64,000 nt of DNA from an uncultured Clostridia bacterium (GTDB lineage: Bacteria > Bacillota > Clostridia > Christensenellales > UBA1750), in assembly GCA_904393115.1 (NCBI GenBank), contig CAJFMX010000002.1, positions 62,001-126,000 on the forward strand, read 5' to 3'. Under the pieces are notes generated by a model that saw only the letters and a program-made list of their open reading frames with translations, ran no database searches and had not been told where the DNA came from. Made by a program: the position numbers and the translations under genes. This document shows, in pieces, positions 35,035 through 38,446 of the stretch (position 1 is its first letter; the number at the start of each line of letters is the position of its first letter).

Positions 35035-35320
35035 AATTTACAAATTGTGCCAAATTGCCAAAAAAACTTTCCGGATGTATATTTCCCCGCGCAGCATACA
35101 TCAATTTGGATGTGGGTTTGCGTTTCTTTTCTGGATTTTGCGTGTTTTTTGCCGTGAATTTTCGTTTTCTTTACACAAAAAGCCGCACATTCGAAAAAAC
35201 AATCCTCCAGGTAGAAAATACCGCTATTGAATGTTTGAGAGGGTTGTTATACAATGAATAAGTAAGTTGCTTCATAACTATTTCTGCGGCTGTAAAAGGT
35301 ACGCGGCATCGGAGGTAAGT
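35035..35320. other. AT-rich intergenic stretch with no gene
   Basis: About 285 bases with a GC content that I estimate by eye near 40 percent, against well over 60 percent around it. It holds a small inverted repeat ACATC/GATGT near 35097-35117, poly-A and poly-T stretches, and a promoter (35227-35255) before the XRE gene. No convincing coding frame was seen. Confidence 0.6.
35227..35255 (+). promoter_or_regulatory. Probable promoter of the XRE gene
   Basis: TTGAAT at 35227-35232, 17 bp, TACAAT at 35250-35255. Confidence 0.65.
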
Positions 35321-35641
35321 ATGACACGCGAAGAGTTTATCAAACGGAAGATCCGGGAAAAGGGCATGACGCTCAAGGATTATGCGCGCTCGATCAACAT
35401 GCCCTATTCCACGCTTCTTTCCATGCTGGCGGGCAATCTGGGCGGCGCCTCGCTGGACAACGTGGTGCGCATCTGCAATGGCTTGGACACCAGCATTGGC
35501 ACGATGCAGTCCGCGTACATGGATGGCGGATTGGAGAACAACGTCACGGACCTGAGCGAGCGCGAAAAGAAGCTCGTCCTCAACTACCGCGCGGCGGGCG
35601 TCCTGCAGGAGGCCATCGACAAGCTGCTCGACCTCAAGTAA
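35321..35641 (+). CDS. XRE-family helix-turn-helix protein
   Basis: A 106-residue protein. The helix-turn-helix is KGMTLKDYARSINMPYSTLLSMLAG at about residues 15-40, with NVVRICNGLDTSI following, typical of small clostridial Cro/CI-type repressors. The C-terminal third is a charged helix (LSEREKKLVLNYRAAGVLQEAIDKLL). GGAGGTAAGT precedes ATG 35321. It stands alone between recN and spoIVB and has AT-rich upstream DNA, so it could be an insertion into the usual recN-spoIVB order. Target unknown. Confidence 0.85.
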   Translation: MTREEFIKRKIREKGMTLKDYARSINMPYSTLLSMLAGNLGGASLDNVVRICNGLDTSIGTMQSAYMDGGLENNVTDLSEREKKLVLNYRAAGVLQEAIDKLLDLK

Positions 35642-35793
35642 TCCAGTAAGAAAAAACTTTCCATCGGGCCTGCGGCCCGAAGAGAATGCGGCCAACTAGA
35701 CCACGTCGAGAAACGGGTTCCGACATCTCCCAGAATAACGCGGATGCAAAGTCCACACCTTAAGCGTGAAAAATCGCAAATGGGGTGTGGAAA

Positions 35794-37044
35794 ATGAAAG
35801 CAAAACGGGTGCTGGGAGGGATATTGGCGTGCGCCCTGGTGGCATGGAACTCCATGCCTTCCGTCCAGAGCTTGCGCAAAATCCCGGACCTGATTCATTT
35901 GACGCCGGGCGAGGAAAAGTCGTATTCTTTTTTTCTGCCCATAAAGGCGGAGGTGGCGGAGGACAGCACGTGCGTGCTCTCCTCAACGGATGAGACGCTC
36001 GGCTCGCGCGTGACGACGCTGACCACGGAGGAGCCGGGCAGCGCGCGGGTCGAGTTCTCCCTCCTGGGATGGATTCCGCTCAAGACCGTCGAGGTCCGCG
36101 TGGAGGACGCGCGCATCCTCATCCCCGGCGGCCAGAGCATCGGCCTGACGCTGTTTACGGACGGCGTGTTCATCGTCGACAGCGCGGAGGTCTACCTTCC
36201 GGACGGCACGACGGTCAACCCCGCGCGCGACGCGGGGCTCAGCTCCGGGGACCTGATCAAGCGCGTCAACGGCGCGTCCATCGACTCCATGCAGGACCTG
36301 ACGGACGCCGTGCGCAGCAGCGGGGACGGCGCGCTCACCGTGGAGTACGTGCGCGACGGCCAGGAGCGCACCGCGACCGTCGAGCCCGCGACGGATGAGA
36401 CCGGCCAGCGCCGCCTGGGCATCTGGGTGCGCGACTCCACCGCCGGCATCGGGACCCTGACCTATATCGACCCCAAGGAGAACGCCTTCGGCGCCCTCGG
36501 CCACGCGGTGACGGACCTGGACACCGGCAGCATCCTGCCCATCGACCACGGCCAAGTCTACGTCAGCGAGATCGTGGACGTGCAGAAGGGCGCCCGCGGC
36601 CAGGCCGGGGAGCTGCACGGCGTCTTCACCGGGAACTTCGACGCGCTGGAAACCCTGACCAAGAACACGGAGTTCGGCGTCTACGGCAGCGCGCGCGACC
36701 CGGACCCCAACCCGCTCTACCCGCAGGGCCTGCCCGCGGCCGCGCAGTCCGAGGTGGAGCTCGGCCCCGCCACGATCCTGACCACCATCGACGGCAGCGG
36801 TGTGCAGGAGTTTGCCTGCGAGATCATCCGCCTGACGCCCCAGGCCTCCCGGGCCTCCCGCTCCATGGTCGTCGAGATCACGGACCCGGAGCTGCTCAGC
36901 GTCACCGGCGGCATCGTGCAGGGCATGAGCGGCAGCCCCATCCTGCAGAACGGCAAGATCGTGGGCGCGGTCACGCACGTCTACGTCAACGACCCGACCA
37001 AGGGCTATGGCCTCTACATCGACTGGATGCTCGACACCCAGTGA
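35794..37044 (+). CDS. spoIVB: SpoIVB peptidase
   Basis: A 416-residue serine peptidase of the S55 family that signals from forespore to mother cell to activate pro-sigma-K processing. An N-terminal membrane segment (about 7-25) is followed by a PDZ domain (about 140-205, with GLSSGDLIKRVNGASI) and the catalytic domain with H in ALGHAVTD and S in the late GMSGSPI. ATG 35794 is used; a GTG nine bases upstream is the alternative, and the ribosome site is a weak GGGGTG. A small GGGCC/GGCCC hairpin lies in the upstream gap. Confidence 0.95.
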   Translation: MKAKRVLGGILACALVAWNSMPSVQSLRKIPDLIHLTPGEEKSYSFFLPIKAEVAEDSTCVLSSTDETLGSRVTTLTTEEPGSARVEFSLLGWIPLKTVEVRVEDARILIPGGQSIGLTLFTDGVFIVDSAEVYLPDGTTVNPARDAGLSSGDLIKRVNGASIDSMQDLTDAVRSSGDGALTVEYVRDGQERTATVEPATDETGQRRLGIWVRDSTAGIGTLTYIDPKENAFGALGHAVTDLDTGSILPIDHGQVYVSEIVDVQKGARGQAGELHGVFTGNFDALETLTKNTEFGVYGSARDPDPNPLYPQGLPAAAQSEVELGPATILTTIDGSGVQEFACEIIRLTPQASRASRSMVVEITDPELLSVTGGIVQGMSGSPILQNGKIVGAVTHVYVNDPTKGYGLYIDWMLDTQ

Positions 37045-37073
37045 GAGAGGGCGGCTTTTCAGCCGCCCTCTTC
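37045..37073 (+). terminator. Terminator after spoIVB
   Basis: GAGGGCGGCT pairs with AGCCGCCCTC around a TTTC loop, followed by TT. The T-run is short, so efficiency may be low. Confidence 0.6.
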
Positions 37074-37081
37074 AGTCCCCC

Positions 37082-37130
37082 AAAAGAGTGCATAACCCAT
37101 CTTTTAACAAATGCACAAAAAAGAGTGCAT
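37082..37130 (+). promoter_or_regulatory. Repeated GTGCAT motifs before the spo0A-like gene
   Basis: AAAAGAGTGCAT occurs twice exactly 37 bp apart (37082-37093 and 37119-37130). ATGCAC at 37111-37116 forms an inverted pair with the second copy, separated by eight bases. It looks like a regulator binding array; the regulator is unknown. Confidence 0.5.
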
Positions 37131-37200
37131 TATGTCTTTGGCAGGAAATCGCGCCCGCGCGTCGAACCCTCTTTCCATGGGTGCGAAAGGGGGCGGGCAG

Positions 37201-37905
37201 ATGCGCATCTACATCCTTCGCCGGACGCTGGGGGATGCCGAGCGCGCGCAGGCACAGATCCGGGCGCGCGGCGCGGACCGCGTCGTGGGCCTTGCCGCGG
37301 GCGGCCGTGTGGACGAGGAGGCGCTGCGCCGCAGCGGCGCGGATCTCTTCGTCCTGGACGCGGTCCTACCGGGGCAGGACGGCCTCGCGCTCGCCCGCGC
37401 GCTCGCGCCCAGGCCCTGCGTACTGCTCCTGCCCTGCGCGCAGAACCTGCGCGCGCCAAAGAATGCCCGGTTTGCCACGGAGGCGGAGCTCGCCGCAGCG
37501 CTGGACGATGTGCGCGGCGCGGCCCTGGCCACGCCGGACCGAAACGCCCTCGGCGAGGAGCTCCTGCGCCTGGGGTTCAAGCCGCAGACGCTCGGCACCC
37601 GCCAGCTCTGCCGCGCGCTGGCGATCGCCCTGCAGGACGAGGGGGCGCTGGCCGACGTGCGCAGCCGGATCTACGCGCCCATCGCGCGGGAGATGCGCCG
37701 CACGCCCGACAGCGTGGAGCGCAACATCCGCTACGCCATCGAGTGCGCCTGGGTGCGCGGCGACCTGCGCGCGCTGCAATCCCGGTTCGGCTATACCGTG
37801 GAGGCCGAGCGCGGCAAGCCCACGAACCGCGCGTTCCTCGCGCAGATCTGCGAGCACCTGCGCCTAAGGCGCATGGACGCGCAGGAGGAAACATACCCTT
37901 CCTAA
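37201..37905 (+). CDS. Spo0A-like response regulator with degenerate receiver
   Basis: A 234-residue protein next to spoIVB, where spo0A normally lies. Residues about 115-225 match the Spo0A DNA-binding domain: LGTRQLCRALAIALQDE, RTPDSVERNIRYAIECAW, then LFGYT-like RFGYTVEAERGKPTNRAFLA. The N-terminal receiver is weak. D53 in VLDAVLPGQDGL is kept, but the acidic pair near the start is replaced by arginines (R7, R8), and the threonine and lysine switch residues are not recognisable. It may be a phosphorylation-independent form or a diverged master regulator. ATG 37201 follows GGGGGCGGGCAG. Confidence 0.85.
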   Translation: MRIYILRRTLGDAERAQAQIRARGADRVVGLAAGGRVDEEALRRSGADLFVLDAVLPGQDGLALARALAPRPCVLLLPCAQNLRAPKNARFATEAELAAALDDVRGAALATPDRNALGEELLRLGFKPQTLGTRQLCRALAIALQDEGALADVRSRIYAPIAREMRRTPDSVERNIRYAIECAWVRGDLRALQSRFGYTVEAERGKPTNRAFLAQICEHLRLRRMDAQEETYPS

Positions 37906-37921: not shown

Positions 37922-38446
37922 TTGTGGAAAGACGCGGCGCGCGGCGCAAAAAAACACCTGGCAGACTATGGAATCGGATATGGAATCGCCGTCTTTCTCG
38001 CCATCGCGGCGGCGACGAGCGGCTTTCGCACGGGCGGGGAGGGACTGGATCTCTTTTCGCCGGTCTCCGTCTCGGCGGGCGCGCTGCTCTCCCTCCTGCG
38101 GGAGGGACTTGCGGTGCTGGCGCTCTGGCTCTGCTCCCTGCATCCCTTTGGCTGCGCGCTCTGCGCGGCGCTGCTCGTGAGCCGGGCCTTCTCCGTGGGG
38201 ATGGCCTGGAGTGCGTGGATCGCGGCGCACGGCTGGGCGGGCGCGCTGGCCTTTGGCGCGCTGCTCGTGCCGCAGGGGCTGTTGTCGCTTGCGGCGTGGT
38301 GCGTGGGCTGCTGCGTGACGGCCTATGCCGCGCTGCGCGCGCACATCCCGGGAAAGACGGCCTATGCCTGCCTGCTCGCCGCCGTCTTTGCGGCGCAGGC
38401 GCTCGCCCTCGCGCTGCGGTGCCTCGCCTCGGCGTGCCTTGCCTAA
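37922..38446 (+). CDS. spoIIM: SpoIIM-like membrane protein
   Basis: A 174-residue hydrophobic protein with about five membrane segments. Segments EGLAVLALWLCSLHPFG, SVGMAWSAWIAAHGWAGAL and LVPQGLLSLAAWCVGCCVTAYAALRA line up by eye with SpoIIM, whose role is to hold the SpoIID-SpoIIP engulfment machinery. Similarity is modest, so the name rests also on position after spo0A, usual in clostridia. The start is a TTG at 37922 behind GGGGAGGG. Deob follows after 33 bases. Confidence 0.7.
   Translation: MWKDAARGAKKHLADYGIGYGIAVFLAIAAATSGFRTGGEGLDLFSPVSVSAGALLSLLREGLAVLALWLCSLHPFGCALCAALLVSRAFSVGMAWSAWIAAHGWAGALAFGALLVPQGLLSLAAWCVGCCVTAYAALRAHIPGKTAYACLLAAVFAAQALALALRCLASACLA

Follow-up and report, generated by a model that had tools for sequence, protein, structure and literature searches.

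In the 64,000-nucleotide stretch of DNA analysed here (the window), the gene at the classical spo0A address, directly downstream of spoIVB and on the same strand, encodes a Spo0A-like paralog whose receiver domain has lost four of its five active-site residues. Because an intact canonical Spo0A is encoded on another contig (C12) of the same genome, the window gene is a second Spo0A, in agreement with one of the two readings offered by the original prediction, namely a second Spo0A-like protein in an organism that had lost or moved the canonical one. The paralog was probably left at the spoIVB locus after an old duplication and would now regulate sporulation by binding DNA independently of phosphorylation. 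Spo0A is commonly taken to be a single-copy, phosphorylation-gated switch, and a location after spoIVB is used to recognise spo0A; in this genome the canonical regulator is encoded elsewhere, so that annotation by position would mislead.

The spoIVB-linked gene and its receiver

The reading frame of the paralog (Table 1) is open throughout, and its ATG at 37201 is preceded by the purine-rich stretch AAAGGGGGCGGGCAG; an alternative in-frame start at 37111 would give a longer product and is less likely. The original prediction had placed the gene after spoIVB, the usual position, and had called its DNA-binding half Spo0A-like, and both descriptions were upheld: the upstream neighbor is a clear Peptidase_S55 gene, and residues 120-220 matched the Pfam Spo0A_C profile at 91.4 bits (cut-off 25, E 4e-26). 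The Response_reg match was weak (17.6 bits; cut-off 30.2), and under TIGR02875, the NCBIfam equivalog model of Spo0A, the protein scored 88.5 bits where 200 are required and thus falls outside the equivalog.

Table 1. Features of the spoIVB-paralog locus (positions in the window)
Feature	Position	Strand	Remarks
Spo0A-like paralog, pseudo-receiver and Spo0A_C DNA-binding domain	37201..37905	+	234 aa
Degenerate receiver, residues about 1-108	37201..37524	+	predicted receiver fold, helix 4 absent
Codons Arg7-Arg8 at the Mg2+-binding acidic-pair positions	37219..37224	+	alignment
Codon Asp53, phospho-acceptor position kept	37357..37359	+	alignment
Spo0A_C domain, residues 120-220	37558..37860	+	profile match; VIA-align Z 18.8 to 1lq1_C
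Helix VERNIRYAIE, matches VERAIRHAIE of Bacillus Spo0A	37714..37743	+	alignment
spoIVB (Peptidase_S55, E 1e-80), anchors the ancestral spo0A locus on its upstream side	35785..37044	+	
spoIVB/paralog gap	37045..37200	.	hairpin, GTGCAT repeats, weak sigma-70-like site

In an alignment in which all outgroup Spo0As (15/15) carry DDD(S/T)K, the five active-site positions of the window receiver read R, R, D, P and A against the canonical DDDTK: Asp53 alone is kept, and the set of residues that defines a phosphorylatable Spo0A receiver (acidic pair, Asp, Ser/Thr and Lys) is incomplete. The Pro and Ala lie in a deletion region where the alignment gaps are uncertain, with no Thr/Ser or Lys in place. 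Thus the earlier observations that the receiver keeps D53 but has Arg-Arg for the acidic pair, and that the switch threonine and lysine are unrecognisable, agree with the alignment. No frameshift was detected: the closest relative, G009, aligned with the window paralog across residues 1-225 (55% identity) with no stops, and likewise has Arg-Arg, which rules out a frameshift or sequencing error in the window copy. A chance Asp/Arg pattern in a random open reading frame was ruled out by the family and fold support.

An AlphaFold2 model of the paralog was built from eight family sequences (mean pLDDT 83; pTM 0.53, the domain arrangement therefore being uncertain). Its C-terminal half superposed on chain 1lq1_C of a Spo0A-DNA complex (VIA-align, Z 18.8), and its N-terminal half on many receivers (Z about 14). 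The modelled receiver keeps the fold without helix 4, a coil at residues 77-88 joining strand 4 to strand 5. A pseudo-receiver, or atypical response regulator, has been defined by the absence of one or more of the five active-site residues (PMC12632262); with a predicted receiver fold and four of these residues missing, the N-terminal domain of the window protein is, according to the model, a pseudo-receiver under that definition. By alignment, the helix VERNIRYAIE is close but not identical to VERAIRHAIE of Bacillus.

As for the neighboring genes, an XRE-type HTH gene conserved in the genus (35267-35641) lies between recN and spoIVB, and a membrane protein gene (37922-38446) directly follows the paralog. 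The product of the latter matches spoIIM only very weakly (13.2 bits, E 0.058), and its position right after the paralog suggests a diverged SpoIIM.

The canonical copy and the linked copies of the order

The genome of the window contains exactly two Spo0A_C genes, the window paralog and the copy on C12. The latter encodes a protein of 286 aa with an intact DDDTK set that passed TIGR02875 at 292.8 bits (cut-off 200), and lies within L075 4021-8146 (G000:C12) with the neighbors sipL(SPOCS)-ispE-spoIIR; over the C-domain the two proteins share about 29% identity. A search of the genome for another Spo0A and for kinases, proposed along with the original prediction, thus found both, the HisKA kinase matches numbering 17. 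Since spoIVB, spoIIR, SpoIIIAE and the GPR protease are also present, the organism looks able to sporulate with the canonical regulator, judging from its gene content. The window gene as the sole Spo0A of the genome was ruled out by the C12 copy.

To define the distribution of the paralog, 61 genomes from 33 families of the order (Christensenellales) were surveyed, a linked copy being a Spo0A_C protein encoded at most 2.5 kb from spoIVB; L072 (G031) and L135 (Anaerotruncus), which fall among canonical or outgroup sequences, were not treated as linked copies of the order. A linked gene was present in 29 of the 61 genomes and in 19 of the 33 families, while 14 of the families sampled yielded no copy beside spoIVB. 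Among the 29 genomes it lay on the opposite strand in two and on the other side of spoIVB in one, and 27 carried a further copy (>120 bits) elsewhere. In the family of the window, 7 of the 11 genomes had the linked gene after spoIVB, and an additional one (G002) had it behind a displaced 3' end of spoIVB. Within the genus, the window genome and G009 encode pseudo-receivers with Arg-Arg, G006 has a receiver-less version of 133 aa located 25 nt after spoIVB, G007 has spoIVB and no linked gene, and the contig of G008 stops just past spoIVB.

The state of the linked receivers was graded across the order: i) intact in G011, G027 and G032; ii) absent in G006, G012, G017, G018, G019, G046, G049 and G055, among others; iii) partially lost in others. 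The linked copy of G011 scored 349.7 bits under TIGR02875 and is a full Spo0A, so that two intact Spo0As coexist in that genome. No linked copy contained internal stops, all frames being open; outside the order, linked copies were nearly always intact and had 0A boxes in front. Given this gradient among the linked receivers, acidic-pair loss appears from these sequences to be a repeated end state and not a single oddity, Arg-Arg being the version of one species pair. On the question of whether Arg-Arg is conserved, therefore, the pair itself extended only to the nearest relative, while acidic-pair loss was found family-wide, in all receiver-bearing linked copies.

In trees of both the C-domain and the full-length proteins, the canonical copies of the order formed one clade (100/100), and the sipL-ispE-spoIIR neighborhood is common to at least four families. 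The linked copies occupy the position of the outgroup Spo0A (loci of Bacillus, Paenibacillus, Tissierellia and others). The linked copies have long branches, which make their deep branching uncertain, and tests of one clade for them gave p values of 0.52 and 0.48 and neither rejected nor established it; a single clade of linked copies is thus allowed (p 0.52). The simplest history would be an early duplication or relocation in the order, with the copy at the old address then decaying in its receiver.

Further Spo0A_C proteins were encountered in the survey. A third Spo0A was found in genus g3 (L085 3572-4369 in G003; L086 5133-5933 in G004); it belongs to the canonical clade, and the second residue of its acidic pair is Ser (DSDAK, DSDTK), the G003 copy still passing the equivalog score at 215.6 bits. 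G044, a 4.2-Mb genome of the order, encodes nine Spo0A_C proteins, mostly short and receiver-less, at several places (C3); these are possibly of prophage origin.

Other sporulation genes were also seen in pieces. In G002, spoIVB is broken at its catalytic-serine motif GGIVQGM|SGSP (L189 2739-7780, G002:C6; L188 8097-9362, G002:C13), and three large serine recombinases are directly followed by the displaced spoIVB 3' end. Displaced 3' ends in G022 (L194 6454-6696) and G005 (L191 6497-6619) start at the same point, which suggests that skin-like elements, or other elements with serine recombinases, integrate at this motif. SpoIIIAE of G006 is in two pieces on different contigs (G006:C54:58156-58896, profile 2-250; G006:C80:2277-2504, profile 245-320), for which an intervening element or an assembly break is possible.

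Control regions and selection

The gap between spoIVB and the paralog contains a 10-bp perfect hairpin (37047-37070) that lacks a clear T run, a single weak sigma-70-like site (37104-37133) and no exact 0A box, the one near match being CGTCGAA; the gap of G009 does contain an exact 0A box. Three GTGCAT/ATGCAC half-sites in direct and inverted repeats (37083-37131) form a possible operator in the window and were not seen in the short gap of G009.

Outgroup spoIVB-spo0A gaps carried a TGNCGAA-type 0A box in 50 of 55 cases (median length 244 nt), as would be expected of an autoregulated spo0A promoter, versus 4 of 21 gaps before the linked copies of the order (median 66 nt). Gap lengths were counted from the first possible start codon, so that the window gap entered at 66 nt (156 nt from the likelier start at 37201). 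The upstream regions of 18 unlinked copies contained 10 exact 0A boxes, where the box density of these loci would predict 0.6. Given this excess and the 4/21 in the linked gaps, the autoregulatory signature seems to accompany the relocated copy in many genomes. Across the whole window 0A boxes were not enriched (5 found, 4.5 expected). The close spacing of the linked copy to spoIVB suggests co-transcription of the two genes in many genomes.

NG86 dN/dS was lower in the C-domain than in the receiver in all three species pairs compared (0.25 v 0.55, 0.15 v 0.24 and 0.41 v 0.57); dS was near 0.8-1.1, close to saturation, in two of the pairs, so the values are rough and their direction alone is used. 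The ratios point to stronger constraint on the C-domain, and to a receiver that is less constrained yet, with dN/dS <1, not free. The recognition helix VERxxRYAIE is preserved in the genus and in several families against a changing receiver.

Proposed role and significance of the paralog

In the reading that we consider probable, the phosphorylatable, canonical Spo0A took up a new position next to sipL-ispE-spoIIR, and the paralog stayed at spoIVB. The pseudo-receiver should refuse phosphate in the usual Mg2+-dependent way, and the Spo0A_C domain would bind 0A-like sites without phosphorylation. This mode of binding is the most likely one because isolated Spo0A DNA-binding domains bind their targets without phosphorylation (PMC3485338) and because truncated, phage-borne Spo0As have been proposed to bypass host signals (PMC10294663). 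With no intact 0A box in front of the gene, activity of the paralog would be set by the amount made, or else by protein contacts of the pseudo-receiver, and the paralog would tune or compete with Spo0A~P; constitutive activity, overlap of targets and the direction of the effect are all inferred. Most relatives retain Asp53 and the P-x-x-DG loop, so the receiver may still have some phosphate-related or acid-mimic role. On the other hand, the linked gene may be dispensable, as it was lost in G007 and its receiver in G006.

These last two genomes also fit the view that the paralog is a decaying duplicate with little function left, in which the old-locus copy is heading for loss and the receiver gradient reflects relaxed selection. 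The absence of the gene from beside spoIVB in 14 of the 33 families sampled, the higher receiver dN/dS and the long branches of the linked copies point the same way; but all linked copies have open frames without internal stops, the gene is present in 19 families, C-domain dN/dS is only 0.15-0.41, and VERxxRYAIE is kept in the genus and several families despite the change in the receiver. We therefore regard simple decay as unlikely. A dominant-negative or heterodimer partner, acting mainly via contact with canonical Spo0A and not at DNA sites of its own, is less probable again. Atypical response regulators heterodimerise elsewhere, as described for BldM-WhiI (PMC4125116), and the receiver fold is kept in the model of the window protein. 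The usual receiver dimer face, however, is alpha4-beta5-alpha5, and helix 4 is absent from the model; moreover, receiver-less orthologs exist, which argues that what has been retained is the function of the DNA-binding half.

The other reading of the original prediction, that the window gene encodes the master sporulation regulator of this organism, acting without the usual phosphorelay, draws on its classical position after spoIVB. Against it stands the intact, DDDTK-bearing Spo0A in the same genome, many orthologs of which have 0A boxes upstream, and we consider it very improbable.

Compared with Spo0A as represented by TIGR02875 (Bacillus subtilis, Clostridioides difficile), the paralog is alike in combining a receiver with Spo0A_C, in its link to spoIVB and in keeping the helix VERxIRxAIE and the KPTN segment. 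It differs in the loss of four of five active-site residues, in its score (88.5 v 200 bits), in lacking an exact 0A box and in having a canonical copy elsewhere. Clostridium thermocellum likewise encodes a second Spo0A homolog, Clo1313_0637, and one of its two homologs is primary for sporulation, but these share 56% identity, versus about 29% over the C-domain for the pair studied here; the available part of that report (PMC4890492) mentions no receiver decay in the second homolog. The truncated phage Spo0As (PMC10294663) also present a Spo0A DNA-binding domain without a working receiver, whereas the window gene is chromosomal, spoIVB-linked and inherited across an order, and keeps a degenerate receiver. 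Atypical response regulators such as ChxR and BldM/WhiI (Bourret et al. 2025, PMC12632262) similarly join a receiver minus active-site residues to a DNA-binding domain, but the output domain of the paralog is Spo0A_C, and Spo0A is not mentioned in the main text of that work. Thus two Spo0As per genome, pseudo-receiver regulators and receiver-less Spo0A are each already known separately. In the literature searched, which was of limited coverage, we found neither an order-wide pairing in which canonical Spo0A has moved and a sibling with a decaying receiver occupies the ancestral address, nor a publication on a Spo0A paralog in Christensenellales.

A broader and distinctly more speculative proposal is that sporulation throughout the order is run by two Spo0As: a master that has relocated and is phosphorylated, and a sibling, linked to spoIVB, that has repeatedly become phosphate-blind and would supply a constitutive, expression-controlled second input on the same or split 0A-box targets, possibly forespore-timed with spoIVB. 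The order offers a natural series of receivers, intact at one end and missing at the other, and would therefore serve as a test of how a phosphorelay-driven master regulator can be split, moved and rewired; the same series may be useful for asking what the Spo0A DNA-binding domain does without phosphate control.
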